Positions 10,358-58,509 of a stretch of 64,000 nucleotides of DNA are shown piece by piece. This DNA is from Eutreptiella sp. 'Long Island Sound 2002' (lineage: Eukaryota > Euglenozoa > Euglenophyceae > Eutreptiales > Eutreptiaceae), in assembly GCA_964036045.1 (NCBI GenBank), contig OZ038378.1, forward strand, positions 54,929,995 to 54,993,994, given 5' to 3'. The notes under the pieces were generated by a model. The model searched no databases. It saw nothing but the letters and a program-made list of their open reading frames with translations, and was not told where the DNA came from. Numbering within the stretch: position 1 is the first letter of the stretch; every line of letters starts with the position of its first letter. A program made the translations under genes and the position numbers.

Positions 10358-10360
10358 CTA
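10316..10360 (-). promoter_or_regulatory. Gag-pro UAG readthrough site, family 1
   Basis: Gag ends GCC CCC UAG (10358-10360), followed by CGG AGC CCC. The same frame then runs open for 95 further codons with plausible protein sequence. A weak CCCT/AGGG hairpin begins about seven bases after the stop. The UAG-NGG-AGC-C context is shared with elements C, D and E. Readthrough is inferred, not shown. Confidence 0.5.
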
Positions 10361-14731: not shown

Positions 14732-15112
14732 TCGTTCCAGTCAACGAACTGGTGGTGGTTGTTGAGGCGGGTGCTGCAGCACTGGGCAGGGGGGTGCGGC
14801 TGGTGCTGGTCAGCTGGTGGTTGTGGAGGTGGTTGACGCGGCCTTGCTGGTCGGCCGATGGGACCCGCTGATGCAGGAGTCCTGGTCAGTCCACTTCCTT
14901 CACGGTCGCGGCGCGGTCAGGGCGATGCTCTGGACGGCGCTGCTGGCTCCGTGACGAACTCAGCGCTGTCGCTGGATGGCGCTGCGAGCCGCTGCGCTGC
15001 GCTGCGAGACGCTGCGCTGCGCTGCGAGCTGCGAGCTGCGCCGCGCTGCTCGGGGTTGGTGGCCCCGAGTGGCACGCGAGGGCTGGGTAACCCCGCGGCG
15101 GTGAAACGCTTT
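14732..15112 (-). other. Element A leader between 5' LTR and gag
   Basis: Non-coding leader. At 14975-15050 it holds a run built from CTGCG and CTGCGAG units, repeated many times. The bases next to the LTR (minus strand AAAGCGTTTCACC) lack the TGG expected of a tRNA primer site and do not match the TGGTAGCAGAGG site of families 2 and 3. The primer is unknown. Confidence 0.6.
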
Positions 15113-23437: not shown

Positions 23438-25810
23438 TGAAGCCGGTTCGGACCCCCCTGGCCATCTTGGGGTCACTTGGGGTGTGTATCTATGTGCCGG
23501 CAAGGCGCCATTGGCTGATATCATACTTTCCCATCCACCTGAGCTAACCCGATGTGATAGTGTGATAGGTTTGGCCATTCCGGCTATGAGCGGCCATATT
23601 CAGTACCGAGGCGCCGCCAGCGGAGATCTATGTATCAGAATATCAGGAATCAACAGGGTTTTATTATCATAATGTTTCCGTAATTTTTCAGCCTTTCGTT
23701 CTGATGGTCAATGTATCGGCGACTGTCAGTTGGCTCGCGATCTTGCGTTAACCGATTGGTTAACTGTTATTTCCAGATATTTTGGCGGAAATCCCGATGA
23801 AGGGTCAGATTTCATCAGTAAAGGGTTCGTTGCTTCCGCAATTTTCTAAATATGCACTCGAAATTTTATTCTGAATTTTTCGCGATGTCGAAATTGGATT
23901 TTCGACTTCGACATCGCCGCACTTGATTTGGTCTTCTTCGAGTGGTCATACTCTTTTCCCTATGCCCGAATCAGGTTTCCCTTATACTTGCCACCCATTT
24001 GACTTGGAGATATAAGGGAAACAAAAGTGAATCGTGGGACCACTTTGAAGGGTCATATCTACGCGCGAGTGTGAGGAAAGAGAATAAGGAAGGTTGGGTT
24101 GCAAGCGCCTCAGTCTCAACTTAATTTAGGAAGCATCAAACGCCTTTGGTGTGTACACATGCCCGGTGTAGCAAGGGATAATGGTCGAGAGGGTATAAAG
24201 TGATATATAACTCTTGGGCCGTGCAACCGAATATTTTAATGCGACTTTCGAGTGTACCGCATGAGTGTTGGGGTTGCATAGATACTTTCCTTGGGTTCCT
24301 ACGCATTTTTAACGTGAACTTATGTCCATGGAGGGACATGGCATATCATGGTGGGAGCCACTTTTGAGGGTATGTTTTATATGCATGGTATATGTCTTGA
24401 TATGCTCACGCCCATGTTATATATCTTTGTGTGGCCGAAGAGATGGGGAGCCATACGTGACAAGGGTTTTGCCCATGTCTCAATTGTGGAATTCAAAGCG
24501 CTAGACCAAGTCTACCGCATATGTGTTGCTCATGGTATGTTTGGCAAAGAGATCCATGGGTGCACTCCCATTTTCATGGGGCATGTAGATATGGGTGGCA
24601 GAGGTATCTCCATGCGCCCGATTGGGGATCAGAGTGGGGGAATTATTCACAAATGGTTCCAATCATTTGTGTATTGAACCATGAGCGGATATCATGGGTG
24701 AGCATAGAGATATACTATCATGACAACTTTGTATTTGGTCATATTTTCATGTTTTTGACCTCAATTTTTGCTCATTTTTGTATTTTGTGTGCTCAACTGG
24801 TCGGCGAACAGCAAGAAGCCTATGGAGAGTCGAACCAGGGTATGTTGTTCATATGTTGGCATATGCTTTGGAGCTGAACACCACCATATGCCGGATCGCG
24901 TACTCCATTTGGCTTGGCACACGAAGGATGGCAAGAATTGGTCTCAAGATCATGGGCTGACTGGGGCAGTGCGTGGCGCCCATATCCGAAGGGGTTTCGA
25001 GGGTAAAGTGGGGATGTACATGGGCATTGATCTTCGGTCTTCATCCTCCATGAATACTAGACTTCGATTCCATGCATGCTTTGAGCCTTCGGATAGGTAG
25101 TAACTTCAATTTTGAGCATATATTTGATATATGGCTAACATGGTGTGAATTGGCAGTTTTTTGGCATGTTATGAGTTCAAACTCATGGGGCATATCTCCA
25201 AGCCCAATCGACTCCAAGTCCAACCAAGGTTATGTCAGGGTAGGGCATGGTCCTGAGTGCCACTCTAGGCCATGACACGCCACCTCCCCTATTGGGCTAG
25301 GATTTAGAGGCTTGGGAGTGAACACATTTTTGGGGTTTGTGTAGTGACTTGTGACACATGGCATTCAGCCATCTCATTTGACCTGGTTCAGGGCAATATG
25401 TTGGTGAGTCAAGGGAAGGTCTTGAGTCCAGGGAATGAGGGGTTTATGGCTGTGAATGTGTATGTTTACCTCTTTCCCCAACTTTGCTTGATATGTGTTT
25501 ATATGCCATTTTCAGGGCTTTCTTCCTTGGTGCAATTCTTGTACATGCCCGCCACCGTGAGAAGACCGGTGTGCTGAACGGAAGCCTGTATCGTGGATTG
25601 GATTGTGAATCGGGTTATTGCTGCATTTGTGGGATCTGATTGCTGTTCAGGGTTGAAGGAGGATTGTATTTTCGATTTTCTATATTTTTGGATTTTGGAC
25701 CTTGGACTTTGAGGATTTTGAGAAATGCAATCGTTGATCCGGAGTAAATCAGCAGGGGTAACAGGCGGAAGGGGCACAGCGGGGGCCGGTCCTGGTAGGG
25801 ACCTTCTTTA
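23438..25810 (+). repeat. Element C 5' LTR (2373 bp)
   Basis: Starts TGAAGCCGGTTCGG, as does D's 3' LTR at 62963, and ends CTTCTTTA directly before the primer site TGGTAGCAGAGG. Lengths agree across family 2 (2334 in B, 2367 in D after removing E). The last 86 bases are the start of the gag reading frame. Confidence 0.88.
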
Positions 25811-28800
25811 TGGTAGCAGAGGCGTACCTGCTGCCCCTACCAACCGCCGACCCGGGGACTTGGGCCCTTATGAGCCCTGCCCAAGTACGCCCCGGGTGCG
25901 TATTCTGGACTCGGTGGAGACCACGCCGGAGATTGGAGCCATAGAAGAACCGAGACGTTCAAGAGCATGGCGAACTCCGGAAGTTGAAGCCCGAAGAGAA
26001 GTACGACATTCGGGAGGAGGAGGACGTGACATGGAGGACCTGGTCTCCATGTGTGAGCGTCGCTGCCGAAAGGCATGCAACCTCCGCTCCGCCGCGGAGG
26101 ACTCTGATGAGGCCTGCCATTCGGGCAGCAGTGGAGGACGGGCCCGGCGCTACCGGAAGCGCGGGTCACCCAAGTCCGCGGCAAGGGACGCCGGGGCTAT
26201 GGACACGGACCCCAGCCCGGTCAGGCTGTGGGAATCCGAGGGGCACTCCGAGGGCTATCGGACAGCCTACGAGCCACCTTTGGAGTCGGAGATGTCCGCG
26301 CTGATCGCCAGGGCGCACACGGCCCCCGAGCCCGCCCTGAAGCACGACGCCGAGGGCTTGGAGAGGCCAGCCCGGGCCCGGACAGCGCCTGTGCCCCGGC
26401 ACACGGGACCAGAGACGGACGCCATAGGCGATACGCCCATGGGCGATGAGTCTGAGGCGCCGGGAACCGCGGGATGCGCTGAATCCGGCAGAAAGCACGC
26501 TGCGTGCCACTGCGAGCACGTGTCCTTCCTCATGGGCAAGTACCCGAAGATGGGGATGGACGCCATCGTGCATCGCCTTGACCGCCTGGACAACGCCAAG
26601 GACGGTCTAGAGGAGGACGTCGCGGGGATTCTGGATGACCAGTCGGCCGCGGAGAAAGACATGGAGGAGCTGCGAGCGGAACGGGACCGGTACCGGGAAA
26701 ATCTGGAGCTGGCCCTGGAGAAGCAGCAGCGAGTGGTGGACAGCCCCCTCCACCTGGTGGAGGACATGTCGGGACGCCTGAAAAGGCTAGAGGAGCTACA
26801 GCCCCTCGCCTCGGGTCAGGAGCTCCCGGCAAAGCCGGCAGCGGCAGAGCTGGTGGAGCGGGTTAAGACCCTCAGGAGCGCCATGGATAAACCCATGGGC
26901 GGCCCTGCAGAGGCACCATACGCGCCTCCGCGTGTTGACCCGGGTGCGCTGCCGTTTGTTCCCATGTTCAGCGAATCCACAATGCTCGGGGAACACACGG
27001 CACCGGCTGGGTCCATGCGGGAAGGGCACGTAACCACGGACCCGAGGAGCCTGACGGTACAGATGTCCCATGCCGCCCAGAATCTACCGATCACGACGAA
27101 TATGGTAGTTTATGCGGAAGAGAAGATCGAGAGCCAGACCATGCAGGGGCGAACCATGGGAAGCGCCGACGGACATGGTCGAGGTCATCCAGGCGGAAAC
27201 CTGTGGGCGAAGGACCCCAATACGGGGATATGGACGGCCGATGGAGCAAATCCTTCCCGCATTCCAAACCCCATGGGTTCAGGCCCAACTGGACCGCACT
27301 CCATGGAGGAGAGGGATGTACGGGGAGTGTACTCACACCCCCCGGCCACAGGTGGTATCCGTCTCGGTGGAGTGGTGGCTGGAGACGTCGGAGACGCCAT
27401 CAGGATTGACGACCTCAGGGGAATCAAAATCCCCTACTACGATGGCAACCCCTCCAACCTGGATGACTTCATCCTGGATTGGGAGGACTTTGCCGAGGAG
27501 GTCGTCGGCGAGATGCGGGGAGCGCCGCGGGATAAGTGGGTATGCCGGACATTCCCACACCGGCTGGCGCAGGACCTGAAGGAGGAGCTGCGGGATCAGA
27601 TCCGGGAAGGACTGATCCGTACGGAGCAGGCCTGCCTCCAGTGGTTGGAGGATGAGGAGCGGGTGGACGCTCCGAATCAGAAGCTGGAGGACCTGTGGTC
27701 CATCCCACTGCCGCTGGACCGCGGTGAGTTGCGGGTCCGGGAGTGGAACCGGTATCTGCGGAAGTACCGCAGATGCCTCAAGCTGGTGGAGGACTGGAAC
27801 GAGGCCAGCAAGATCCGCCACCTCCTGAAGGACGTCCTCCCCGGCAACTGGAAGAGGCGAGTGGAGGACGAGGAGAAGAAGCGCGCCAAGAAGCGGGTGG
27901 CGGTGAGGATCGTGGCGGCGGAGGATACCCATGCGGGTATCATGGAGTTCTTCAGGAGGAACCTGGGCGAGCCCAACCGGATGTTTGGACTGAAGAACGC
28001 CGTGTATGTGGAGGTGTTTGGAGACTCCATGGGGCAAAGGTTGCTGCGCCTCAACAACGTGGAGTGGAGGCGCGGGGAGCCGCTGAGGATGCAAGTCATC
28101 TTCGCCCCCATGAGGCTTGACGAGATCGTGAAGTACATCACGGTGGAGTTGAAGCTCAATGCGAAGAACGAGGCCCACGTGCAGGATCGACATGGTCATG
28201 GACAACGAGGCCACCGAGAAGACCGCCATCATCGGGAGATCCAGGAGGACACGGCAAACTCCGCGGAGGATGGTAGTGGAAGTGGCCAAGACCACTGGAC
28301 CGGGTCCCAGGAGCATCATGAGGAGGCCCACTTCTTCGCGTTTGTGGCGCACAACGTGAAGAACCATGGGCAGGATCGTTCCAGATGGAGCCAGGTGGGA
28401 CTCAAGAAGGGCAAAGAGCAAAGGAGGATCGGGAACCCACCGCTCTCGTTCCGGGAGTACAGGTCTCAGCAGGACGGGTGCTGGGTCTGTTATGGCAAGG
28501 CAAACAACCATGCACACGACCACCGTCAGTGCAAGGTGTATGAGGCGGACAAGAAGGCCTACTTCGCCGCCCACCCCGAGAAGAAGCCCAAGGAGCAGCG
28601 GATTTCCGATTGGAAGGCGAAGGGCGGAGATGGGGGAAAAGGCCAAGGCAAAGGCCAAGGGAAAGGCGGAGGAAGAGGCTATGGTGGCGGACCTGGCCAA
28701 GACCGACGAGTGAGGTCGTGCGAGGAGGTTGCTGAGGACATGTTGAGGGCGTTGGAGGAACTCAAAGCCCAGCAACGTGGTGGACAACGTCCTGGCGGAT

Positions 28801-28835
28801 CGCAGCCGGAAGGGGCTGCGGGAAGCCAAGTTTAG
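25725..28835 (+). CDS. gag: Element C Gag (1036 aa), starting inside the LTR
   Basis: Intact. Residues 1-28 (MQSLIRSKSAG...) are encoded by the LTR. The next codons GGT AGC AGA GGC are the tRNA primer site. A basic/acidic low-complexity region follows, with a Cys cluster near residues 108-117 (CERRCRKAC) that element A's Gag also has. Then come a coiled-coil (about 285-345), a capsid-like domain from about residue 560 (IKIPYYDGNPSNL), a zinc knuckle starting at residue 919 (CWVCYGK...HDHRQC) and a Gly-Lys-Gln/Arg-Gly tail. It ends with UAG. D has the same N-terminus and B's 3' LTR a recognisable relative, supporting this start over later Mets such as MEDLVS near 26031. Confidence 0.85.
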   Translation: MQSLIRSKSAGVTGGRGTAGAGPGRDLLYGSRGVPAAPTNRRPGDLGPYEPCPSTPRVRILDSVETTPEIGAIEEPRRSRAWRTPEVEARREVRHSGGGGRDMEDLVSMCERRCRKACNLRSAAEDSDEACHSGSSGGRARRYRKRGSPKSAARDAGAMDTDPSPVRLWESEGHSEGYRTAYEPPLESEMSALIARAHTAPEPALKHDAEGLERPARARTAPVPRHTGPETDAIGDTPMGDESEAPGTAGCAESGRKHAACHCEHVSFLMGKYPKMGMDAIVHRLDRLDNAKDGLEEDVAGILDDQSAAEKDMEELRAERDRYRENLELALEKQQRVVDSPLHLVEDMSGRLKRLEELQPLASGQELPAKPAAAELVERVKTLRSAMDKPMGGPAEAPYAPPRVDPGALPFVPMFSESTMLGEHTAPAGSMREGHVTTDPRSLTVQMSHAAQNLPITTNMVVYAEEKIESQTMQGRTMGSADGHGRGHPGGNLWAKDPNTGIWTADGANPSRIPNPMGSGPTGPHSMEERDVRGVYSHPPATGGIRLGGVVAGDVGDAIRIDDLRGIKIPYYDGNPSNLDDFILDWEDFAEEVVGEMRGAPRDKWVCRTFPHRLAQDLKEELRDQIREGLIRTEQACLQWLEDEERVDAPNQKLEDLWSIPLPLDRGELRVREWNRYLRKYRRCLKLVEDWNEASKIRHLLKDVLPGNWKRRVEDEEKKRAKKRVAVRIVAAEDTHAGIMEFFRRNLGEPNRMFGLKNAVYVEVFGDSMGQRLLRLNNVEWRRGEPLRMQVIFAPMRLDEIVKYITVELKLNAKNEAHVQDRHGHGQRGHREDRHHREIQEDTANSAEDGSGSGQDHWTGSQEHHEEAHFFAFVAHNVKNHGQDRSRWSQVGLKKGKEQRRIGNPPLSFREYRSQQDGCWVCYGKANNHAHDHRQCKVYEADKKAYFAAHPEKKPKEQRISDWKAKGGDGGKGQGKGQGKGGGRGYGGGPGQDRRVRSCEEVAEDMLRALEELKAQQRGGQRPGGSQPEGAAGSQV
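25811..25822 (+). other. Primer-binding site, element C
   Basis: TGGTAGCAGAGG matches the complement of the 3' end of eukaryotic initiator tRNA-Met (CCUCUGCUACCA). It directly follows the LTR end and lies inside the gag reading frame. Confidence 0.8.
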
Positions 28836-28868
28836 AGGAGCCCCCACGGGAGTGGGACCTCAGAGGTC
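28833..28868 (+). promoter_or_regulatory. Gag-pro UAG readthrough cassette, element C
   Basis: CAA GTT UAG AGG AGC CCC. Seven bases after the stop a hairpin CCCAC-GGGA-GTGGG (28843-28856) can form, stacked on a second one GACCT-CAG-AGGTC (28856-28868). The frame stays open into protease with no other start needed. Spacing and layout resemble gammaretroviral UAG suppression signals. Function is inferred. Confidence 0.55.
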
Positions 28869-29445
28869 TCTCCTCCGAAAATCAGTGGAATCCCAGAGAA
28901 AGCGAAGGCACATCGGGTGCCGAAGAAGGCTCCAGAAGAGCCAAAACCACTGAGCTTCGCCACTCCCAACCCCTGGAGCGCCCTGCCAAGGGAAGTACAT
29001 GTGGGTACGGGACATGGCAAGAAGGAAGGAGCGACCACGGAGAGCCCCGTGGACGGGCAGGACCAACCCAAGATCTACACCATCCGTGACCATACCCTTG
29101 AAGTCCTGATGCACCCGGACGTGCTAGAGTTGCATGCCGTGAGAGTTGTCCATACACCTCATGGCGACGAGCGGCAGTTGCACTTGAAAGTGCGAGTACG
29201 GTGCGGACGAGAGGAGAAGGTGGTGGATGTGTTACTGGATACGGGTGCCCAGGTGAGCCTGGTTCGGAGAGGGTTGTTCAAGGAGGAACTCCTGCAGCCC
29301 AGCCGGAGACCGGTCCGCCTGAAGGTCGCCAACGGAGAGATTATGGGTGGCGGCACCCATGAGGCCACCATTAGTATGGAATTCTGGGAGCATGAGCGCT
29401 TGAAGCGCCCTGATCAGGCGAAGAGAAGCACTCTATCCGGGAACT
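28836..29445 (+). pseudogene. Element C protease, truncated
   Basis: In frame with gag after the UAG. It contains PKKAPEEPKP, then the aspartic protease triad in LLDTGAQVSLV (29238-29246). The frame then loses homology at SGN, where element D continues FYVAGITDWDMIMGYDF. The chimeric frame runs a further 40 codons into LTR DNA and is not meaningful protein. Confidence 0.8.
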
Positions 29446-30482
29446 CAATTTTTGCTCATTTTTGTATTTTGTGTGCTCAACTGGTCGGCAAACAGCAAGA
29501 AGCCTATGGAGAGTCGAACCAGGGTATGTTGTTCATAGGTTGGCATATGCTTTGGAGTTGAACACCACCATAAGCCGGATCGCGTACTCCATTTGGCTTG
29601 GCACACGAAGGATGGCAAGAATTGGTCTCAAGATCATGGGCTGACTTGGGCAGTGCGTGGCGCCCATATCCGAAGGGGTTTCGAGGGTAAAGTGGGGATG
29701 TACATGGGCATTGACCTTTGGTCTCTATCCTCCATGAATACTAGACTTCGATTCCATGCATGCTTTGAGCCTTCGGATAAGTAGTAACTTCAATTTTGAG
29801 CATATATTTGATATATGGCTAACATGGTGTGAATTGGCAGTTTTTTGGCATGTTATGAGTTCAAACTCATGGGGCATATCTCCAAGCCCAATCGACTGCA
29901 AGTCCAACCAAGGTTATGTCAGGGTAGGGCATGGTCCTGAGTGCCACTCTAGGCCATGACACGCCACTTCCCCTATTGGGCTAGGATTTAAAGGCTTGGG
30001 AGTGAACACATTTTTGGGGTTTGTGTAGTGACTTGTGACACATGGCATTCAGCCATCTCATTTGACCTGGTTCAGGGCAATATGTTGGTGAGTCAAGGGA
30101 AGGTCTTGAGCCCAGGGAATGAGGGGTTTATGGCTGTGAATGTGTACGTTTACCTCTTTCCCCAACTTTGCTTGATATGTGTTCATATGCCATTTTCAGG
30201 GCTTTCTTCCTTGGTGCAATTCTTGTACATGCCCGCCACCGTGAGAAGACCGGTGTGCTGAACGGAAGCCCGTATCGTGGATTGGATTGTGAATCGGGTT
30301 ATTGCTGCATTTGTGGGATCTGATTGCTGTTCAGGGTTGAAGGAGGATTGTATTTTCGATTTTCTATATTTTTTGATTTTGGACCTTGGACTTTGAGGAT
30401 TTTGAGAAATGCAATCGTTGATCCGGAGTAAATCAGCAGGGGTAACAGGCGGAAGGGGCACAGCGGGGGCCGGTCCTGGTAG
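29446..30482 (+). repeat. Element C 3' LTR remnant
   Basis: Closely matches 24766-25798 with scattered substitutions, running from CTCAATTTTTGCTC to GGTCCTGGTAG. It therefore carries a second copy of the gag AUG and its first 25 codons (at 30409), now running into unrelated DNA. Confidence 0.88.
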
Positions 30483-39432: not shown

Positions 39433-39733
39433 GTGTACATGCGCCCATAACCCACAGAAGCAGGTTGCGAGGTATAATGCCGCAGAATATAGGTCGCGCG
39501 TGAGTGCGTAAATGATAATGGGAGATTCAACAATTGGTGTGTTATTTGGAAACACAGTTTATGTTTACATGTTTGTAGATATGACATGAACCCGTGTGGA
39601 ATATCCTGAACGTTTGTCTCGACAAGGTCTGTGCTTGGACTTCTTGGTGTTCGCCGTGCCAGGGATAGCAAGAGGCCTTACAAAACTTTCAGATCCCACG
39701 GGGATTTGAACTCGTCGTTTCCGTGTCGCTCCT
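39433..39733. other. Junction region between element B and an unknown ORF
   Basis: No gene is recognised. A minus-strand GAGTTCAAATCCCCGTGGGA near 39690-39710 is B-box-like, but no A box or cloverleaf accompanies it. Confidence 0.4.
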
Positions 39734-45982: not shown

Positions 45983-47092
45983 TCAAAAGACAATTTCATT
46001 TGGAGAAAGGCCATGATACAAAGGCGTGTTGTGGTAACGGCGAAGCAATGCGAAGAGAACTTCAAGCCAGTGGAAATCCTTCTCACTCGCGAGCTCCTTA
46101 CGAAGCATATTTATAACAGAGCGGCCGGCTCTTTCGCCAGGCAGCGCTCGATGCGAGTGGATTTCACACCTGAGGTGGTGGATTCCAAGGCGAGCACACA
46201 ATTCTCTCCACCATTCGGAGGTGTACTCTTTGCCTGAGTCCGTGACCACCTCGGATGGGACGTCCCAGCCTCCCATCCAGGTCTGCGCGCACCATTTGGC
46301 GGCAGCCTTGCCAGTCATCGACTCAATGTTGCAAGGCAACACTTGAATGTAGCCGGAATGACGGCACTGAATAAGGAGCACACCATTGACTTTTTTGTTA
46401 GTCCAATGGCACTCTTCATCATCGAGTTCACCGAGATAGAAGAAATCACTGGTGACTCTGTTAAAGAGGCGCTCCGGAATTGGGTGAGGCCTCAGATGAC
46501 CGTGCTTCTTCGCGCTGGGAGGCGTCGAGACAGCACATTGGGCACATCCGGCTGCTACTTTCATGCAATGAGTGTAGAGCCTCGATCCAAACAACCTATG
46601 CTTAATCATCGACCACAGTCGACGGCCATGTGCGTGGGGGGACTCCCATTTATGCCACCAGTTTAACACTCGGGGGGCTAGGGCGTCTGGCACACACAAT
46701 TTACCCTCCATCCACAGTTTCCCCCCATCCAACGAGTACTCTGCAAAAATCCCATCCCTGTGAGCATCTTTGGATTGGAGATTTCCAAAGACCTCTTTAA
46801 ACATGGGATCCTGCAGGTAATCGGACGTCCAGTCACGGATGATCAGGGAATCCTTAGGCAGGGGTGGAGTTTTGGCCGGATCTCGACGCTTAATGCCCTC
46901 GATCAACCGAAATCGACTTACTTGTCGGGTATAGTCAAACCGTTTCACACTCCCTGAGGAGAGATCGGTGACTTTTTCCACGACTTTCAGCATTTTTGGT
47001 GCAGAGCTCGTGAGCATGCGCCGGATCTGTGATGGCCGTGATGTCGTGACACGGCAATGCGTGCTGTTTAACAGCGCACTGCATGCATGCAC
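45983..47092 (-). CDS. Element E integrase core
   Basis: The integrase zinc finger (HKWESPH...CAQCAV) precedes the catalytic core: SDFF, VVTDSGKEYTSEWW and GERAGRSVINML supply the Asp-Asp-Glu residues. The frame ends GLSPNEIVF at a TGA. It is shifted relative to the RT frame and overlaps it at 46935-47092. The crossover that best preserves homology is at GGAAAAAGTC near 46974-46983, where one A too many, or a +1 programmed shift, would join the frames. Confidence 0.88.
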   Translation of the reverse strand: MHACSALLNSTHCRVTTSRPSQIRRMLTSSAPKMLKVVEKVTDLSSGSVKRFDYTRQVSRFRLIEGIKRRDPAKTPPLPKDSLIIRDWTSDYLQDPMFKEVFGNLQSKDAHRDGIFAEYSLDGGKLWMEGKLCVPDALAPRVLNWWHKWESPHAHGRRLWSMIKHRLFGSRLYTHCMKVAAGCAQCAVSTPPSAKKHGHLRPHPIPERLFNRVTSDFFYLGELDDEECHWTNKKVNGVLLIQCRHSGYIQVLPCNIESMTGKAAAKWCAQTWMGGWDVPSEVVTDSGKEYTSEWWRELCARLGIHHLRCEIHSHRALPGERAGRSVINMLRKELASEKDFHWLEVLFALLRRYHNTPLYHGLSPNEIVF

Positions 47093-50000
47093 GTCGAATG
47101 AGTTTCTTTTCTTCCTGATCCCATTCGATGATTACATGGCGGTCCTGCTCCGTACCATGGATGTTGGTACTTTGCAGCCCCTCTGAGGCGGGGTAAGCCC
47201 ATCGGCTCAGAGCATCCGCTACCGTGTTATGTTTACCAGGCAAATACGACACATGGAGGTCAAACAGAGAGAGAAATTCGTGCCATCTGGCCCGTCGGCC
47301 AGCTGGGCTCGCGACAGTATCAATGTGTTCAGTGGCCCAATACTCCAGAGATCGATGATCCGTCAGGACCTCGACTCGATTGGTGCCAACCCACGATTGG
47401 TACTTTTTTAAAGCACAGATGATGGCGTAAGTCTCTTGCTCACGCGGCGACCATTGCATTTGGCGTGGGGCTAGCTTCCGTGACCAAAATGCAAGAGGGT
47501 AATGATCGCCGGTGGCTTCATCAACCTGTTCAAGGACAGCTCCGATCGCGTACCTAGAAGCGTCGGTTCTAATGTAGAAGGGTCGGTCAAATTGGGGCAC
47601 ATGCAACGTGGCAACTTCGCAGAGGGCTGCCTTCAAGTGATGGAAGGCCTCCTCGCACTCGTCAGTCCACTTGACACGAACCTTTGAACCTGCCTTGCCC
47701 GCATCTCTCCCTACCTTCAATAATTCAGTGAGGGGGGCAGCAAATTTGGCATAATTCGGCACAAAAGTGTGGTAAAAATTGCAACAACCCAGGAATCCTC
47801 TCAACTCCGTGATCGTCTCAGGGCGCTTCCACTTCTGAATAGCGACGAGCTTCCCTGGACTGGGTCGTCGAGTGCCATTCTCTAGGAGAGAACCACAAAA
47901 TTCGACTGATTTTAAAAATAATTTTCCCTTCTTTGGCCCACAAATCAGCTGATTGGCGTCAAGAATATCCAAAACTTGGTTCAGCTGCTTCTCATGTAGG
48001 GCCACCAGCTCGGCTTCGGTCAGTCCCTCCCCCTCCGTCGCGATGATTATGTCATCTATGTACACACTCACGAAAGCACGAAGCTCAGGATGGGTTGTGA
48101 ACAGCACATCCTCCATCATTCTTTGAAAAAATGAGGGGGCGTTCTTCAATCCCATGGGCATGACGGTCCATTGGACTGGGCCACATGGCGTGCACATACA
48201 GGTGAGAGGTCTGCTGTCCTTCCTCAACGGCATTTGGTGAAAGCCGTGACGGAGATCCAGCACAGAGAACAAACGACCTCTTGCCCTCTTGGCGATTTCC
48301 TCCTCAATGAGGGGCAGGGGGTGTGAATCCGCCTTTGTTTCGGCGTTGAGATTGCGAAAATCAACCACCATTCGCCAACCATCAATGGTGTTCTGGTCTG
48401 CAGGCGGTGGCTTCGGGACTGTGAAGGGTGAACAACACCATTCGCTGGTCATACAACCCTCAAGCCAACCAAATTCCCTGAGATTTCTCTCGATGATTTT
48501 TCTGAGAATCTCATGTTTGTGTCCATGATTTTCATAAGGGCGCTGTTTTTTTGCCTTGTACCCTTCACGAAGCTCGATGAAGGCTTCACCGAACTGTCCA
48601 CGGACAGGGGGGTCTTTGATCAACTTCCCTGAAAGGGTTGTGTCCTTCCGTTCCTCAAAAATCTTTTCTCTTGACTTGGAACACAATTCAGTGTCCACCT
48701 GATCGCCAGGAATTACTGTGGAAAAAACTTTGGCGACTTCTTCGGCTTTGGCAGGAAGAATCATCTTACGGATATCCCTAAAGAGGTCCGTATCCACTGC
48801 CTCTTGAAGATAGGTGGGTCTTGTGTCGAAATCCCAGAGATTTTCTTCGCGATCCAGCTCCTCGAAAGGATCCATGAAAGCTTCCACAGGGGGTTTTTCA
48901 TAAAAAACTCTGAATTTGCGGCGCGATTGGAGATTTTTCATCGCCCGTGCACTGAAGATTCTTTTCGATGTCGACCGTATTGGGGAAGAGGGAGACGAGG
49001 CGGATCCATTGGACGTTGAATCACCTTGGGTATCTGACGGACAAAAATCAGAAAAAATAGATTCATCATCAGTACCACGCTCAACCTCAGATTCAGACCC
49101 AACACAGGAATCTGTACTAGAATCAGCAGAATTAGAGTCAGAAAGCTTTCCATCCACCAGGAATGCAAGCGAACTCCAGGACCGCTGTGGCAGGGGACCT
49201 GTGTCGTCCCTGGCATACAGCTTAATCTTCCTGGGAAGTTCGATGTAATCTACACAAATGTCCTGTAATTCCTGAAACCAAGGCTTGTCGTCCCACAAGG
49301 GCACAACCAAAATTGCCTGGGTTTTATCTTGCTTGATTTTGTGGATGACCTGCTGGATTAAGTGAAACGGAGGATTAATCCACAACTTCTTGTCCCATTT
49401 GTGGGTCCAAGCGTCGCTGAAGTGCTTATCAAAGCGCTTGTTCATACGGTTAGCAAAGGCATCATACTGTGGCCAAAAGGAGTGATGTTCATGAAAGTAT
49501 TCACAAATTGCATCGCGCCATTTGTCGACAACTCTGTAGGATGAAGAGTGCCAGCGCGAAGGGCGTCGTGGCTGGGAGTCCCTACGAAGACATTCTAACT
49601 CTTGGGAGTAATCGGCACTCCCATTCACCTCTGCAATGGTGACATCTTCACCAAATTTTGGTGTCACTTTTTGCTTCAAAAATTCTTCTGCACTTTTAAA
49701 CCCTGCGTGCAAAAAACGAAATTCAGGACGCTCCAAAGGACCTGACTCCAGCAAAAAACAACGACGATGACCTACGGGCGCTACCCTGTTCTTGCGAAGC
49801 CAAGGATGGCCCAAATAAAGGTCATATTTTATGTCAGCACGGTAGAAGTAGTCATCCTTAAGGACAACTTCTTCCACATTTTGCTCTTCCCAAAGGTCTT
49901 GAGCGACCAAATGGGTGGATATATAACAACCGCGTTGCCCACCTGCGAGAGAATGTCCAGAAACTCCCTCGAGGGTAACAGGATGAGGCGATTCAAACAC

Positions 50001-50288
50001 GCAGTCGTCGGGTAAGAAGGAATTGGATTGGAGATTTACCTCTGATCCATTATCACACAAACAAGTGGCGAGGTGGAAATTTCCCTTGCAATCAGAGACC
50101 CACAGCTTTGTGACAAACTGACGAGCCCTGTGCTTGGACTGTACACCAACCTCGTCCACTACAACAGAAGGATCCGCTGCCGGATCCAGGGGAGAGGAGA
50201 CAAGCGACCCTACATCAAGTAATGGTCGATCAGGAATTTGGGGATCATGCCTGAAATCGCCTGGGGAGGGGCGATTTTCGTGGCTCCC
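46935..50288 (-). CDS. pol: Element E Pol: protease, methyltransferase-like, RT, RNase H
   Basis: Continues in the gag frame after the UAG; the first conserved stretch begins about 43 codons on. Numbering from the Val at 50159: protease with active-site CDNGSEVNL (36-38 are D-N-G, not D-T/S-G) and the later DLYLGHPWL strand; a Dam-like methyltransferase domain (about 209-310) with DAFA, NPPF at 262-265 (49365-49376) and AILVVPLW; an acidic Ser-rich linker; RT with VDFRNLN, LDLRHGFHQMPL and YIDD (48051-48062); RNase H with RTDASRYAIGAVLEQ, LTDHRSLEYW and HNTVADALSRW. It acts within the cytoplasmic particle to make cDNA. Confidence 0.93.
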   Translation of the reverse strand, partial: GSHENRPSPGDFRHDPQIPDRPLLDVGSLVSSPLDPAADPSVVVDEVGVQSKHRARQFVTKLWVSDCKGNFHLATCLCDNGSEVNLQSNSFLPDDCVFESPHPVTLEGVSGHSLAGGQRGCYISTHLVAQDLWEEQNVEEVVLKDDYFYRADIKYDLYLGHPWLRKNRVAPVGHRRCFLLESGPLERPEFRFLHAGFKSAEEFLKQKVTPKFGEDVTIAEVNGSADYSQELECLRRDSQPRRPSRWHSSSYRVVDKWRDAICEYFHEHHSFWPQYDAFANRMNKRFDKHFSDAWTHKWDKKLWINPPFHLIQQVIHKIKQDKTQAILVVPLWDDKPWFQELQDICVDYIELPRKIKLYARDDTGPLPQRSWSSLAFLVDGKLSDSNSADSSTDSCVGSESEVERGTDDESIFSDFCPSDTQGDSTSNGSASSPSSPIRSTSKRIFSARAMKNLQSRRKFRVFYEKPPVEAFMDPFEELDREENLWDFDTRPTYLQEAVDTDLFRDIRKMILPAKAEEVAKVFSTVIPGDQVDTELCSKSREKIFEERKDTTLSGKLIKDPPVRGQFGEAFIELREGYKAKKQRPYENHGHKHEILRKIIERNLREFGWLEGCMTSEWCCSPFTVPKPPPADQNTIDGWRMVVDFRNLNAETKADSHPLPLIEEEIAKRARGRLFSVLDLRHGFHQMPLRKDSRPLTCMCTPCGPVQWTVMPMGLKNAPSFFQRMMEDVLFTTHPELRAFVSVYIDDIIIATEGEGLTEAELVALHEKQLNQVLDILDANQLICGPKKGKLFLKSVEFCGSLLENGTRRPSPGKLVAIQKWKRPETITELRGFLGCCNFYHTFVPNYAKFAAPLTELLKVGRDAGKAGSKVRVKWTDECEEAFHHLKAALCEVATLHVPQFDRPFYIRTDASRYAIGAVLEQVDEATGDHYPLAFWSRKLAPRQMQWSPREQETYAIICALKKYQSWVGTNRVEVLTDHRSLEYWATEHIDTVASPAGRRARWHEFLSLFDLHVSYLPGKHNTVADALSRWAYPASEGLQSTNIHGTEQDRHVIIEWDQEEKKLIRRACMQCAVKQHALPCHDITAITDPAHAHELCTKNAESRGKSHRSLLRECETV

Positions 50289-50291
50289 CTA
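50254..50291 (-). promoter_or_regulatory. Gag-pol UAG readthrough cassette, element E
   Basis: AAC GCC UAG GGG AGC CAC. Eleven bases after the stop there is a perfect 8-bp hairpin AAATCGCC/GGCGATTT (50277-50270 with 50261-50254). Its loop, CCTCCCCA, is complementary to GGGGAG at the stop itself, allowing an alternative pseudoknot-like fold. Gag and pol are in the same frame with only this stop between them, in a young element, which favours a functional leaky stop. Confidence 0.6.
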
Positions 50292-53200
50292 GGCGTTCTG
50301 ACCTCCAGCGGCTGCGTTAACGTTGTGAACACAGCCTGTTTCGTCGATCCATTCATCTTGGAACGGATCATCCGCTGGATTCAGAGCATTTTCGACGTAA
50401 TCTCGATCCGCATCAGACACCTGGTCTGCACCTGAGACCTGATCCACACGATGGTTGCCCTTTCCTCGTCCACGGCCACGGCCGCCGGATGATGGGCCAC
50501 CACCGTCGCCACGCCCTCTGCCCTTACCAGAGAAGGGGGTTCCTGAAGGATTTCCCTTACCCTTACCCTGTGATCCTGGAGCATTTCCTTTATTTGTACC
50601 GGATTGAGGGGTTTGGCCTGGATTTCGATTTCCGCCTCCGGCGTTGACATTGGGACCTGTCTGGCCATTTGGCTGCCCACCGGAACCGGATGGAGTCCGA
50701 TTTCCTTTGCCTTGGGACCCGCCAGGGCCTCCAGTATTTTTGTTCCCACCGGAGGGAGTCGAATTACCCTTTCCCCCCTTGGCACCATGCACCTGTCTGT
50801 CATTCCTGTCTGAATTCTGAGGATTACTGACATTTTCACCAATCACCTTGTGATCGTAAGCAGACCATCGGTGATTAGCAGTGGAATGCGTCTTAGCTCG
50901 GTTCGTAGAACCTAGAAGAAGACAGATGCTACAATGATCCTGAACATTCCGGGTGTCATTCACCTTTTTGTTGCCCTTTTGGGCCCCATTTTGGGTGTTT
51001 TGCTGGGTATTCCTGTTTCCCCCAAGACCCTCATGGAAATTTTGATTGGCGGCGTCAGCGAGCCTCTCAACCTCTTCCCACAGTTCCTGCGGAGTAAACG
51101 AAAACACCCAGTTCCTGGCTTTCAGGCGATTGCCATGGAAACTTACTCCCCTGTTGAGGACTTGGACAAACAAGTCCCGATCCTCGTGTTCATTGAACTT
51201 GATTTTCCACGTGTTTTCAGTGAATTTCACCTTGGTAAACGACGTGGGGGAGCACTTTTGAAGTGCCTCCCTGACGGTAAACCGGTTGGCCGAGGCGTCA
51301 AAGCCATCGATCTCCGCCCACCAGGTCTTGACCTTTTCTTCGGACTGTCGATTCCGAAGGGTGGCGGCGGTTTCTGAGGGGATCTTGTCAAAAATCAGAT
51401 TTTTCAGCTCGGCACTGGAAAATTTTTCGCCTGAATGTTCAGATTCTTCTACGAGATTCCAGAAGCGCTGTCTCTTGTCCTGCACCTCGTGCAAGATTAA
51501 TCGAGAGAACGAAGGAAAATTCTTCAACATCTGGTGGTAATGGTCCTCTGGCAGTCGAGATCCACGTACCTCCAACTGTTCCCACACCTCATCAAAGGTA
51601 AGGGGGGAACTTGAATCTTCACGATCACTCCAGGTTCTGAGCCAAGTGTTGGCCGGCGCTCCCTCAAGGCAGTCCAAGAGCGCCATCAGGAACTGATCAT
51701 CCTGGAGTTTTTGAGTCTTAACCCACAGTTTAAATTCCCGTTGGAACTGAGGCCAACGTCTGGGGTTCCCATTGTACTTCGGTTGCTTGGCAACCTGACG
51801 GAGTCGCAATGAAGTGGGATTTAGGAGTGAATCCAGCCCAACACCGGCCGTAATGGCAGACACCTTGGCGGCATCATTAGCCACACCAGCTCCGGCGAGG
51901 GTCTGGGCGAGCAACATCTGGGCAATTGCATTGGAATCAACAGCAGGAAGGGTAGTACGGGAGGCAGTTCTTTTGGCATTCTGAACCTCAGTCCTAGCCT
52001 TTGCCGATCTACTCTGTGATCGAGAGATTGTAACCCTTTCATTTAGCTTAGTCCTGCTGATCCGTGCATCGGTGGTCTTAGAGTCCACCGAAGGAGCAAT
52101 CGAAAAAATTTCTGTCGCCTCCTCCGACGGTTCTGTTGTCTGATCCACCGATGATGCGCCCTCAGACCTCATGTGGGTCTTGAAAAGATCTTTAATTCCC
52201 AGCGTCTGAATGATGAGTTGCATTTGATCTTTGAGCAATTGGAGCTCAGAGTCTCGCTGAGATCTGCAAGAGCAGTCGGCAGGACAGTACATACCGTGTC
52301 CTGAAGGGCCTGAGCAGGCTGTCGGACCGCTAATCTCAGTGGTTCGCAGCCAGGAGTCCACTTGGGGAGCTCCTTCAGTCCTAATTTCCAGGCTTGCCTG
52401 CCTAGCTGCCTCTAAGATTCCTTCCTCAACCGCGGCGGCTAGATCGTCGCGGATGGAAACAGAGGGATGGGGGACGGAGGGCCCGGCAACCTGTGCCTTG
52501 GTCTTCTCCTTCGGGAAGGGGCTTGCCTCCCAGATCTGCAAGAAAATGGCAAAAGATTCATCCTCTTGAGAACACCACCACATCCTGGTCTTAATTTCTT
52601 CTTGAAGGAGGAAAAAATATTCAAATAAAAAATCAGAGGCGATTCTTTCTTGTCCTATCAGCTTAGACGTGGCTAATAGACACAGGGCCTCAAGACTCTG
52701 AAGGTTACGGGTCACTTCTGAAGACAAATGGTTGTCCCATTGTGCCCAATTGTCTGGTCGATTATAGGTTGGTACCTCACCTGGACCACCCATCTCAATG
52801 TCGTCAATGTCGGCATCGATGGTCTCGAAATGTGGACATTGGTAGGGAGTATTAGTACCTGCCAGGTCCGTAAGCTCCACCGGAGCGTTGCCATTAGCGT
52901 AAGCTGGGAGATTCCAGCTGCTTGATGGCCAATTTCGACTGGGATCTTGATTGTAATCTGGGCCTCCACAGCTGCTGATTTGTGTCCTTCTTGGGCAATT
53001 TGGGCTTGCGCAAGGCATTCCTCTCAAGGCTTCGTTTGCACAGCACCACGGGAGCGTGATCGTTACGTCTCCGGAGGTGGCGGGGTCTACGGGGCCGTAC
53101 TGAGGGGCTAGCTGTGGTTGGGACACCAAAGGAACAACATTCAGGTAGCCTCTGCTACCATGAAAGTGCTGCCCTGGGTCGTTGTGGGTGCCGGAGGGCT

Positions 53201-53324
53201 CGGGGCCGGCAAGACCAGTGGGGCAGGCACGCGAGGAGTCTCCCTGGATGTTGTTATTGGGGTTGGAACCGGATACACGAACACCAACGGAGGCGAGAGC
53301 AGCGACAACAGAGGCAAGGTCCAT
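50289..53324 (-). CDS. gag: Element E Gag (1011 aa), starting inside the LTR
   Basis: Intact. The ATG at 53324 lies in the 5' LTR, and the first 54 codons (MDLASVVAALASV...) are LTR sequence. Codons GGT AGC AGA GGC then read the primer site. Further on are a Ser/Glu-rich region, a capsid-like domain (about residues 515-760) with QPKYNGNPRRWPQF, a possible nucleic-acid-binding segment (TWKIKFNEHEDRDLFVQVL), an atypical zinc motif CSICLLLG...H...H, and a long Gly/Asn/Lys-rich tail. It ends AAAGGQNA before UAG. There is no downstream rival start that keeps the conserved length. Confidence 0.9.
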   Translation of the reverse strand: MDLASVVAALASVGVRVSGSNPNNNIQGDSSRACPTGLAGPEPSGTHNDPGQHFHGSRGYLNVVPLVSQPQLAPQYGPVDPATSGDVTITLPWCCANEALRGMPCASPNCPRRTQISSCGGPDYNQDPSRNWPSSSWNLPAYANGNAPVELTDLAGTNTPYQCPHFETIDADIDDIEMGGPGEVPTYNRPDNWAQWDNHLSSEVTRNLQSLEALCLLATSKLIGQERIASDFLFEYFFLLQEEIKTRMWWCSQEDESFAIFLQIWEASPFPKEKTKAQVAGPSVPHPSVSIRDDLAAAVEEGILEAARQASLEIRTEGAPQVDSWLRTTEISGPTACSGPSGHGMYCPADCSCRSQRDSELQLLKDQMQLIIQTLGIKDLFKTHMRSEGASSVDQTTEPSEEATEIFSIAPSVDSKTTDARISRTKLNERVTISRSQSRSAKARTEVQNAKRTASRTTLPAVDSNAIAQMLLAQTLAGAGVANDAAKVSAITAGVGLDSLLNPTSLRLRQVAKQPKYNGNPRRWPQFQREFKLWVKTQKLQDDQFLMALLDCLEGAPANTWLRTWSDREDSSSPLTFDEVWEQLEVRGSRLPEDHYHQMLKNFPSFSRLILHEVQDKRQRFWNLVEESEHSGEKFSSAELKNLIFDKIPSETAATLRNRQSEEKVKTWWAEIDGFDASANRFTVREALQKCSPTSFTKVKFTENTWKIKFNEHEDRDLFVQVLNRGVSFHGNRLKARNWVFSFTPQELWEEVERLADAANQNFHEGLGGNRNTQQNTQNGAQKGNKKVNDTRNVQDHCSICLLLGSTNRAKTHSTANHRWSAYDHKVIGENVSNPQNSDRNDRQVHGAKGGKGNSTPSGGNKNTGGPGGSQGKGNRTPSGSGGQPNGQTGPNVNAGGGNRNPGQTPQSGTNKGNAPGSQGKGKGNPSGTPFSGKGRGRGDGGGPSSGGRGRGRGKGNHRVDQVSGADQVSDADRDYVENALNPADDPFQDEWIDETGCVHNVNAAAGGQNA
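53149..53160 (-). other. Primer-binding site, element E
   Basis: TGGTAGCAGAGG on the minus strand, with no spacer after the 5' LTR. It matches the 3' end of initiator tRNA-Met and is identical to the site in element C. It lies inside the gag coding sequence. Confidence 0.9.
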
Positions 53325-53692
53325 GCTGATTGTGGTCCGGCAGAAAATCCCAGTCTATGAAGAAAATTGAGGGGAATTATTCTAAATACATCTGAGTGTC
53401 CAAAACTGTCCGAATGAATTTAAATAATCCATTTATGTAAAATTGTATGGCCGATCAGGCCCGCGAGCGCGCGCCAGCGGCAAATGGCGATTCCAGCTAA
53501 AATAGCGGAATGCGGCGGATTTACGGGAAATGGACCGCGGAATCAAATCCGGCATATCAGAAATATATAGGAAATATCCTGTGACTGAGCTGCGAGGCGG
53601 CAATTTCGCCGAAGCAAAGAAAATGACCAAAATGTAGCCAATCTGGGCAGAATGTCTGAAAATCTGAGCAGATGGGGCTAGCCGCACTTACA
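53161..53692 (-). repeat. Element E 5' LTR (532 bp)
   Basis: Contains a TATA-like box on the minus strand (53561-53570), a leader of about 200 bases and the gag start codon at 53324-53322. Confidence 0.96.
53561..53570 (-). promoter_or_regulatory. TATA box of element E
   Basis: CTATATATTT on the minus strand, about 240 bases upstream of the gag AUG within the 5' LTR. Transcription would begin roughly 25-35 bases further on. The same sequence is in the 3' LTR near 43327-43336. Confidence 0.55.
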
Positions 53693-54524: not shown

Positions 54525-57504
54525 TGTAGCAGAGGCGTACCTGCTGCCCCTACCTACCGCCGACCCGGGGACTTGGGCCCCTATGAGCCCTGCCCAAGTA
54601 CGCCCCGGGTGCGTATTGTGGACTCGGTGGAGACCACGCCGGAAGTGGAAGCGCGAAGAGAAGTACGACGTTCGGGAAGAGGAGGACTTGACATGGAGGA
54701 CCTGGTCTCCATGTGTGAGCGTCGCTGCCGAAAGGCATGCAACCTCCGCTCCGCCGCGGAGGACTCTGAGGAGACCTGCCATTCAGGCAGCAGTGGAGGA
54801 CGGGCCCGGCGCTACCGGAAGCGCGGGTCACCCAAGCCCGCGGCAGGGGACGCCGGGGCTATGGATACGGACCCCAGCCCGGTTAGGCTGTGGGACTCCG
54901 AGGGGCACTCCGAGGGCTATCGGACAGCCTATGAGCAACCTTCGGAGTCGGAGGAGACGGCCAGACCGCCCACAAGGGCGAACACGGCCCCAGAAACCAG
55001 CCTAGAGCATGACGTCGGGGCGTTGGAGAGGCCCGCCAGAGCCAGAACGGCGCCTGTGGCCCGGCACACGGAGCCAACGCGGGATAGCATGGGCGACACA
55101 CCCATGGCGGAGGAGTCCAAGGCGCCGGGAACCGCGGGATGCGCCGGATGAGGTGGAAAGCACGCTGAGTGCCACTCCGAGCACGTGTCCTTCCTCATGG
55201 GCAAGTACCCAAAGATGGGGATGGACGCCATCGTGCATCGCCTCAACAGCCTGGACAACGCGAAGGACGGCCTAGAGGAGGACATCGCCGGCATCCTGGA
55301 TGACCAGTCGGCGGCGGAGAGAGACATGGCGGAGCTGTGAGCGGAACGGGACCGGTACTAGGAGAATCTGGAGCTGGCCCTGCAGAAGCAGCAGCGAGTG
55401 GTGGACAGCCTCCTCGACTTAGTGGAGGACATGTCGGGACGCCTGAAAAGGCTAGAGGAGCGACAGCCCCTCACCTCGGGTCCGGAGCTCCCGGCAAAGC
55501 CAGCAGCGGCAGAGCTGGTGGAGCGGGTTAAGACCCTCCGGAGCGCCATGGATAAACCCATGGGTGGCCCGGCAGGGGCACCCTACGCGCCTCCGCGTGT
55601 TGACCCGGGTGCGCTGCCGTTTGTTCCCATGTTCAGCGAATCCACAATGCTCGGGGAACACACGGCACCGGCTGGGTCCATGCGGGAAGGGCACGTAACC
55701 ACGGACCCGAGGAGCATGACAGTACAGATGTCCCATGCCGCCCAGGATCTACCAATCACTACGACTGCCCATGCAGTTTATGCGGAAGAGGAGATCCAGA
55801 GCCACACCATGCAGGGGCGAACCATGGGAAGCGCCGACGGACATGGTCGAGGTCATCCAGGCGGAAACCTGTGGGCGAAGGACCCCAATACGGGGATATG
55901 GACGGCCGATGGAGCAAGTACTTCCCGCATTCCAAACCCCATGGGTTCAGGCCCAACTGGACCGCACTCCATGGAGGAGAGGGATGTACGGGGAGTGTAC
56001 TCACACCCCCCGGCCACAGGTGGTATCCGTCTCGGTTGAGTGGTGGCTGGGGACGTCGGAGACGCCATCAGGATTGACGACCTCAGGGGGATTCAAAATC
56101 CCCTACTACGATGGCAACCCCTCCAACCTGGATGACTTCATCCTGGATTGGGAGGACTTTGCCGAGGAGGTCGTCGGTGAGATGCGGGGAGCGGCGCGGG
56201 ACTAGTGGGTATGCCGCACATTCCCACACCGGCTGGCGCAGGACCTGAAGGAGGAGCTGCGGGATCAGATCCGGGAAGGACTGATCCGTACGGAGCAGGC
56301 CTGCCTCCAGTGGTTGGAGGATGAGGGGCGGGTGGACGCTCCGAACCAGAAGCTGGAGGACTTGTGGTCCATCCCGCTGCCGCTGGACCGCGGTGAGTTG
56401 CGGGTCCGGGAGTGGAACCGGTATCTGCGGAAGTACCGACGGAGCCTCAAGCTGGTTGAGGACTGGAACGAGTCCAGCGAGATCCGTCACCTGCTGAAGG
56501 ACGTCCTGCCCGGCCACTGGAAGAAGAAGGTGGAGGACGAGGAAAAGAAGCGAGCCAAGAAGCGGGTGGCGGTGAGGATCATGGCGCCGGAGGATACCCA
56601 TGCGGTTATCATGGAGTTCTTCAGGAGGAACCTTGGCGAGCCCAACCGGATGTTGGGACTGAAGAACGCCGTGTACGTGGAGGTATTTGGAGACACCATG
56701 GGGCAAAGTTTGCTGCGCCTCAACAACGCGGAGTGGAGGCGCGGAGAGCCCCTGAGGATGCAGGTCATCTTCGCGCGCATGAGCCTGGATGAGATCGTGA
56801 AGTACATCACGGTGGAGTTGAAGCTCAATGCGAAGAATGAGGCCCACGTGCAGGATCGACATGGTCATGGACAACGAGGCCACCGAGAAGACCGCCATCA
56901 TCGGGAGATCCAGGAGGACACGGCCAACTCCGCGGAGGATGGTAGTGGAAGTGGCCAAGACCACTGGACCAGGTCCCGGGAGGATCACGAGGAGGCCCAT
57001 TTCTTCGCGTTTGTGGCGCAGAACGTGAGGGACCATCGGCAGGATCGGTCCAGATGGAACCGGGTGGGACCCAAGAAGGGCACAGAGCCAAGGAGGATCG
57101 GGAACCCACCGCTCTCGTTCCAGGAGTACAGGTCTCAGCACGACGGGTGCTGGATCTGTTATGGCAAGGGAAACAACCATACACACGACCACCGTCAGTG
57201 CAAGGTGTATGAGGCGGACAAGAAGGCCTACTTCGCCGCCCACCCCGAGAGGAAGCCCAAGGAGCAGCGGATTGCCGATTGGAATGCGAAGGGCGGAGAC
57301 GGGGGAAAAGGCCAAGGCAAAGGCCAAGGGAAAGGCGGAGGAAGAGGCTATGGTGGCGGACCTGGCCAAGACCGACGAGTGAGGTCGATCGAGGAGGTTG
57401 CTGAGGACATGTTGAGGACGTTGGAGGAACTCAAAGCCCAGAAACGTGGTGGACAAAGTCCTGGCAGATCGCAGCCGGAAGGGGCTGCGGGAAGTCAAGT
57501 CTAG
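54438..57504 (+). pseudogene. gag: Element D gag, decayed
   Basis: Collinear with element C Gag from MQSLIRS through the GSRG-equivalent (CSRG), Cys cluster, coiled-coil, capsid-like domain, zinc knuckle (CWICYGKGNN...HDHRQC) and Gly-rich tail. Premature stops include TGA at 55149-55151, TGA at 55338-55340, TGA at 56038-56040 and TAG at 56203-56205. A segment is also frameshifted near 56085. The last part (56314-57504) is open and ends at the conserved UAG. Confidence 0.88.
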
Positions 57505-57537
57505 AGGAGCCCCCACGGGAGTGGGACCTCGGAGGTC
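57502..57537 (+). promoter_or_regulatory. Gag-pro UAG readthrough cassette, element D
   Basis: CAA GTC UAG AGG AGC CCC, followed by the same two hairpins as element C. The only change within the hairpins is CAG to CGG, in the second loop, so both stems are preserved although gag itself has decayed. Confidence 0.5.
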
Positions 57538-58509
57538 TCTCGTCCGAAATTCAGTGGAATCCCAGAGAAAGCGAAGGCACATCGGGTGCCGAAGAAGGCT
57601 CCAGAAGAGCCAAAACCACTGAGTTTTGCCACTCCCAACCCCTGGAGCGCCCTGCCAAGGGAAGTGTATGTGGGCAAGGGACGTGGCAAGAAGGAAGGAG
57701 CGACCACGGAGAGCCCCGTGGACGGGCAAGACCAGCCCAAGATCTGCACCATCCGTAACCATACCCTCGAAGTCCTGATGCACCCGAATGTGCTAGAGTT
57801 GCATGCCGTGAGAGTCGTCCATACACCACATGGTGACGAGCGGCAGTTGCACTTGAAGGTGCGTGTACGGTGCGGACAAGAGGAGTTGGTGGTGGATGTT
57901 TTGGTGGATACGGGTGCCCAGGTGAGCCTGGTCCGGAGAGGGTTGTTCAAGGAGGAATCTCTGCAGCCCAGCCGTAGACCGGTACGCCTGAAGGTGGCCA
58001 ATGGGGAGATTATGGGTGGTGGCACCCATGAGGCCAATATCAGTATGGAATTCTGGGAGCATGAGCGCTTGAACCGCCCTGATTTGGCGAAGAGAAGCAC
58101 TCTATCCGGGAACTTCTATGTGGCCGGCATTACAGATTGGGATATGATCATGGGGTATGACTTCATGGTGGGAAACGCCATTGGAGCCCTTCCCCATCGT
58201 GCAACGCTGGTCCGGGAGGATGATGAATGCCTCACATGGCTGTCCACGGACTATGCATGCGGATCATCCCAATGGAATGCTGAGGAAGAGGATCGGATCG
58301 TCCAGGCGGTGCAAGCTGTGGGTGCCAAGTCCAGAGGGGACCGCGGAGTTCAGCTCACGGAGTATGGAATGGCGCCGCAGGTGTACGACAGGATGATCCA
58401 AACGCTGGGAGCCGAAGCGCCCGAGACGGACGTCTTCGCTTCCCGGGATGCCCCACTTTTGAGGAAGTGTAGGAGGCATTGGCATCGAGGAGACTCAGCC
58501 TGGCACTAG
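57505..58509 (+). pseudogene. Element D protease and start of methyltransferase-like domain
   Basis: In frame after the UAG. The aspartic protease has LVDTGAQVSLV (57907-57915) and the later DWDMIMGYDFMV strand. The next domain begins TDVFASRD. A TAG at 58507-58509 falls where element A reads Lys in DSAWKKHWG, so I read it as a nonsense mutation (AAG to TAG), not a second recoding site. Confidence 0.82.

Follow-up and report, generated by a model that had tools for sequence, protein, structure and literature searches.

In the genome of Eutreptiella sp. 'Long Island Sound 2002', gag in several families of chromodomain Ty3/gypsy retrotransposons ends in a stop codon that lies in frame with pol and is followed by a short run of shared bases. 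We estimate at roughly 84% the probability that this stop is a programmed leaky one, from which a low level of Gag-Pol would be made by readthrough, most likely of the type III or type II kind. The evidence comes from four elements (A, C, D and E) of the window, i.e., the whole stretch of 64,000 nucleotides that was analysed, as well as from related copies and families found elsewhere in the genome.

In all four window elements the gag stop is UAG, with NGGAGCC directly 3' of it (Table 1), as the preliminary description had reported. Its further observation that protease continues in the gag frame without another stop in C, D and E was also confirmed, the frame being open past the stop for 241, 334 and 1117 codons, respectively; the two other frames end within 31-254 bases in all four elements. 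In A the gag frame is open for 95 codons past the stop, up to the separate indel already described. An arbitrarily sampled A-type copy, L048, which displays 87.9% identity to A over the last 462 gag residues, carries the same junction as A, UAG-CGG-AGC-CCC, and is open for all 359 codons examined, beyond the DTG motif of the protease; since this copy is in phase through protease, the indel is private to the window copy of A. The motif scan also matched UAGCGGAGCC, at position 55001 of the window minus strand, inside the A element and away from its gag-pol border.

Table 1. Positions of gag-pol border features in the window elements (numbering from the first base of the window; aa, amino acids)
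Element	Feature	Position	Strand	Remarks
A	gag stop UAG	10358..10360	-	next bases CGGAGCCCC
A	3' context CGGAGCC	10351..10357	-	
A	gag open frame	10361..14740	-	1460 codons, stop to stop
A	protease frame	9277..10206	-	out of phase with gag in the window copy; in phase in A-type L048
C	gag stop UAG	28833..28835	+	next bases AGGAGCCCC
C	3' context AGGAGCC	28836..28842	+	
C	gag open frame	25722..28832	+	1037 aa
C	protease frame	28836..29561	+	in phase with gag
D	gag stop UAG	57502..57504	+	next bases AGGAGCCCC
D	3' context AGGAGCC	57505..57511	+	
D	protease frame	57505..58509	+	in phase with gag
E	gag stop UAG	50289..50291	-	in frame with pol; next bases GGGAGCCAC
E	conserved 3' context GGGAGCC	50282..50288	-	+1 to +7
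E	gag open frame	50292..53354	-	1021 aa
E	pol open frame	46935..50288	-	protease motif at codon 79, RT, RNase H; broken further down
E	predicted hairpin, 5' arm	50270..50277	-	+12 to +19
E	predicted hairpin, 3' arm	50254..50261	-	+28 to +35

Regarding the nature of these elements, the domain order protease-RT-RNase H-integrase of Ty3/gypsy elements was found, and Pfam searches recognized RT, RNase H, rve and chromo in order within the single frame of the A pol; Ty3/gypsy domains are likewise present in E and D, in broken frames. The chromodomain (PF00385) was detected in A pol (5.7e-09) and also in P0001, a database protein of the E family that includes RT, RNase H and rve; a search of IMG/VR with P0001 gave no match. 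The gag of A and that of C are 34% identical over 450 residues, and the protease of E shares 21-24% identity with those of A and C, compared with about 44-51% in the RT region; A, C and E are thus related but old families. In a tree constructed without the yeast elements Tj1, Tosmo1-3 and Tcry1, A-E formed one clade, hereafter clade I (support 100/99). Copy C (window 25722-29740) appears to be internally deleted, gag and protease running straight into the 3' LTR with RT and integrase gone. The window also holds an additional C/D-type pol (36543-39558, minus strand; 91% to D over 193 aa), with no such gag found adjoining, a 467-aa open frame (18697-20097, minus strand) with a weak DDE_1 transposase match below the cut-off (E 0.031), and paired tandem units of ~198 bases at 22885-23282 and 31350-31745, which are related between both places.

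Five families of clade I were compared at the junction, which reads UAG-CGG-AGC-CCC in A (2 copies), UAG-AGG-AGC-CCC in C/D (5 copies), UAG-GGG-AGC-CAC in E, UAA-AGG-CGC-CAA in three windows and UAG-AGG-CGC-CAA in one window of the family termed E-sister, and UAG-GGA-AGC-CAA in four windows of a third E-like family. The expectation that UAG and NGGAGC are invariant had to be abandoned given the E-sister (UAA-AGG-CGC) and third E-like (UAG-GGA-AGC) junctions, and the pattern common to the five families is stop-NGR-MGC-C. Four of the seven bases after the stop are invariant in them (G at +2, G at +5, C at +6 and C at +7), compared with 2 of 69 other nearby columns (+23 and +24; 18 of the 69 lie before the stop and 51 further after it), a difference with a Fisher p of 3.8e-4 that ignores relatedness and is only indicative, as the columns were picked post hoc and the families are related. 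Furthermore, none of 200,000 draws of random coding 7-mers reached at least 4 invariant columns, in a test that also ignores relatedness and in which E coding sequence stands in for two of the families. The residues encoded after the stop differ (RSP, RSP, GSH, RRQ and GSQ), which favours a constraint on RNA rather than on protein, and the flanks differ too; part of the shared context is inheritance, given the relatedness of families within each clade. Among five D-type (C/D) copies, the 45-base bin that starts at the stop is the least divergent (0.018 per site), compared with 0.136 just before the stop and with a next lowest bin of 0.027, not far above it; between two A-type copies the divergence of the stop bin is 0, as it is in several other bins. 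UAG is the stop in A, C/D, E, the third E-like family and L032 (described below), and UAA in three of the four E-sister windows; the +1 base is G or A in C/D, E, E-sister, the third E-like family and L032, and C in A-type elements.

Two further elements found in a 200 kb genomic sample, L045 (L045:3914-10000) and L032 (L032:4989-7970), are organized as two long frames split by one stop just before protease, with protease, RT and RNase H domains seen in both. Their junctions are UGA-CGG-GGA in L045 and UAG-GGG-GGC in L032, and these close relatives constitute, together with P0021, a clade (100/100) apart from A-E. This second, separate clade with UGA-CGG or UAG-GGG at the gag-pol border is new here. 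Counts of the exact 20-base L045 junction gave 3,827 copies with UGA-CGG and 548 with UGA-CAG, with 0 for reversed controls; of two more windows of the L045 family, one carries UGA-CAG and the other is a stopless copy with UGG-CAG. Another element, L034 (L034:7353-9998), groups with foreign chromoviruses and has its gag in a different frame. Its UGA-CUA, which sits between protease and RT, was left uncounted as likely decay, the alternative being a second leaky site.

Retention of the stop was assessed across the genome (2.28 Gb, 2205 contigs) with queries in three families consisting of junction-spanning pieces of ~200 aa, with X at the stop position so that the score does not favour stop-bearing copies. 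These searches score the best candidates only, stops being counted and not placed, and the reported frame length does not break at stops within the match (e.g., 432+1+334=767 in the D row). TAG was present inside the junction piece in 148 of the 150 best scored C/D copies (39,751 candidates), the exceptions being one copy without a stop and one with TGA only. The L045 family displayed TGA in 147 of its 150 best scored copies and no stop in three, and the L032 family TAG in 141 of 150, with eight stopless copies and one with TAA only. For the third E-like family, TAG was found in 61 of the 68 best scored copies (25,446 candidates) and no stop in four, using as query the 650-aa protein P0014, which itself has tryptophan at the stop position; the four DNA windows of this family all have the stop at the junction, and frames of 2,719-2,729 aa holding one TAG occur. 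In P0014 (G000:C3:149966216-149968165), with tryptophan in place of the stop of its relatives, the gag end and protease are fused in one frame. The C/D, third E-like, L032 and L045 searches all returned some frames longer than 2,300 aa in which that stop was the only one.

In the case of E, the 30 copies fetched, the top matches for a query containing the junction, are all identical at the stop and the following 37 bases. A cluster search over a length range of 926-2947 aa, which admits fusions, yielded four E clusters (5,963 member sequences) with representatives of 1056-1684 aa, none of them fused as judged on these representatives. Among 120 listed C/D Gag clusters out of 378, 67 (1,469 members) terminate at the stop and 51 upstream of it, whereas two, outside the 67, align past it, namely P0148 and P0079, the latter by means of an upstream frame change. 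For E-sister, no open frame longer than 1,728 aa was present among the best 70 of 32,709 candidates, a fusion being expected at ~2,700. The preliminary description had named many sense-codon copies as evidence against its proposal, and only the few stopless copies enumerated above were found among those scored in the C/D, third E-like, L045 and L032 families. Since almost every scored copy retains the stop, the junction represents more than chance.

A hairpin downstream of the stop is supported, as a prediction, in one subclade formed by E and E-sister. The predicted E stem comprises a perfect 8 bp from +12 with a loop of 8, and that of E-sister a perfect 9 bp from +10 with a loop of 9; the two families align without gaps after the stop and both 3' arms start at +28, the stem sequences being unrelated. 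Folding of +9..+38 resulted in z values of -3.8 for E and of -4.0 and -4.8 for E-sister. The significance in E varies with the stretch that is folded (z -1.4 for +1..+40 and -1.7 for +9..+48), and longer E-sister stretches gave z -2.5 to -2.9. Stems of at least the respective length at that spot occur at 2.7% (E) and 1.4% (E-sister) of E-frame codon positions. In the third E-like family, 8-9 bp are possible if G-U pairs are included, around a large loop and at ordinary energy, and folding of the bases after the stop revealed no significant hairpin in A, C or this third family; for the D-type copy L044 the hairpin is borderline (p 0.025 in one of three stretches). An H-type pseudoknot between post-stop bases and the hairpin loop of E, matched by 2.7% of 150 background positions, was kept as an idea and no further, because its first arm would sit inside the ribosome. 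A pseudoknot of different pairing in D is equalled by 4.7% of background positions, none above background was obtained for A and C (37% and 27% of positions score equally), and an RNA family search of the window gave no match.

According to the mechanism proposed, most ribosomes would terminate at the stop and release Gag, and a smaller share would decode it as an amino acid and continue, producing a Gag-Pol fusion. One part of the signal would lie in the bases that directly follow the stop, the pattern being stop-NGR-MGC-C for clade I and either UGA-CGG or UAG-GGG for clade II, with a second part, at least in E and E-sister, in the predicted hairpin starting 9-11 bases past the stop; the formation of this hairpin and its action, as well as readthrough itself and its rate, we infer from sequence. 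A single stop in an otherwise unbroken frame, which is UAG, UAA or UGA depending on the family and has neighbours of the leaky type, is explained by programmed readthrough. The conserved readthrough signal of the preliminary description is supported by the conserved in-frame stop, the conserved 3' bases, the leaky-type context and the lack of an AUG before protease in E, L048, L032 and L045, readthrough itself being still putative. Some observations run counter to this reading: E-sister mostly has UAA, a stop described as rarely used for readthrough (PMC8310308); stopless copies occur among the best scored ones of C/D (1/150), the third E-like family (4/68), L045 (3/150) and L032 (8/150); the next codon is CAG in part of the L045 junctions (548 against 3,827 with CGG); and C and D carry an AUG, at codon 92, ahead of protease.

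The latter AUG, which precedes the protease motif at codon 135 in both elements, is what would be expected if Pol had an independent start after the gag stop, by re-initiation or internal entry. This is very improbable, given that the first AUG of the Pol frame comes after the protease motif in E (codon 282 vs 79), L045 (50 vs 28) and L032 (105 vs 27), and that L048 has no Met between the stop and the DTG motif; in these elements, a protease-bearing Pol needs a ribosome coming from Gag. Moreover, with an independent start nothing would require an open frame all the way back to the stop. A start codon would still be required by pol if it were translated from a spliced mRNA, as Pol is in foamy viruses, with UAG retained since its AG is the 3' splice site. 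YUAG is indeed present at all four window junctions, and Copia balances gag and pol by splicing (PMC2194720), but neither the UAA of three of the four E-sister windows nor the UGA of the L045 family ends in AG, so that the splice-site role fails in those families, and a pyrimidine tract precedes the stop in A, with no clear one in C, D or E; we consider splicing very improbable.

Near identity among copies of one family would fit a stop that arose as a decay mutation and was spread by the copying of dead master elements. Conversely, the stop is kept in many copies and in families just 21-34% identical in protease or gag, it occurs in two separate clades, the stop itself and the junction amino acids varying, and the remaining gag-pol has an open frame reaching ~2,700 codons, all of which makes decay highly improbable. 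Finally, a frame open past the stop could indicate that UAG (or UGA) is a sense codon in the host, a reading whose probability we regard as close to nil: frames of 1,021-1,460 codons in gag and pol (element frames alone) are free of all three stops, and UAA, UAG and UGA are all found at the gag-pol border, family by family. UAG is absent from these frames and therefore seems not to serve as a sense codon.

Programmed readthrough at the gag-pol border has precedents, and its occurrence in chromoviruses, which the preliminary description took to be new, was already known: Tj1, Tosmo1-3 and Tcry1, chromoviruses of the fission-yeast Tf1/sushi group, have a conserved UGA-CT gag stop, and Tj1 deprived of its stop shows virtually no transposition (PMC10085805, PMC4600332). 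The elements studied here resemble them in being chromodomain Ty3/gypsy elements with an in-frame gag-pol stop and conserved neighbouring bases, and resemble Tj1 in a Pol without AUG. The contexts differ, UAG/UAA-NGR-MGC-C with some predicted hairpins being found here instead of UGA-CT, for which the available text mentions no 3' structure, and instead of the UGA-CT with preceding GAA that characterizes Tj1 and Tosmo. Gag-Pol readthrough is established in gammaretroviruses (PMC8310308; PMC4178896), and murine leukaemia virus shares a UAG gag stop, followed by an 8-base spacer and a 3' RNA structure; that structure is a proven compact pseudoknot, whereas those of our chromodomain Ty3/gypsy elements are predicted hairpins. 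As to the leaky classes, type III is described as UAG with a 3' G or purine-rich octanucleotide and a 3' structure, UAG-GGR being a type III context, and type II includes UGA-CGG (PMC3542737); of the two type II contexts, UGA followed by CGG or by CUA, the L045 family has the former. Stop and next codon in E and L032 (UAG-GGG) are as in the UAG-GGR of Tombusviridae replicase, and those of L045 as in the UGA-CGG of alphavirus/tobravirus, all of these being RNA viruses, with a long-range structure in Tombusviridae. Tca2, a Ty1/copia element of Candida albicans, also has an in-frame gag stop with a possible 3' pseudoknot, its stop being UGA; the Tca2 junction alone drove no readthrough in S. cerevisiae (PMC2194720), a warning that such a junction may not suffice in a foreign host. 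A search of the literature outside subscription papers found no chromodomain Ty3/gypsy element described as having UAG for its gag stop. What is added here is a chromodomain clade whose UAG/UAA contexts have a 3' motif in common, together with a second clade, with UGA-CGG and UAG-GGG, in one genome.

In the literature surveyed, Gag-Pol readthrough in LTR retrotransposons has been reported for a few elements, and here a single very large genome holds seven families in two clades, most of them in many copies, with three different stops at the gag-pol border. Within clades, UAG-GGG occurs with UGA-CGG, and UAG-NGG-AGC with UAA-AGG-CGC. We tentatively propose, at somewhat less than even odds, that Ty3/gypsy elements in this host make Gag-Pol through leaky gag stops as their general strategy, in which the stop and its 3' bases would have changed together in each clade with the spot staying fixed. 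If so, these families would represent evolving natural signals of types II and III, their hairpins having been rebuilt through compensatory changes, and would point to unusually permissive translation termination in the host. The families constitute a natural series to address which post-stop bases and which RNA structure make a stop leaky, and how stop and context co-evolve, and they offer a direct test of a permissive termination machinery in the host.
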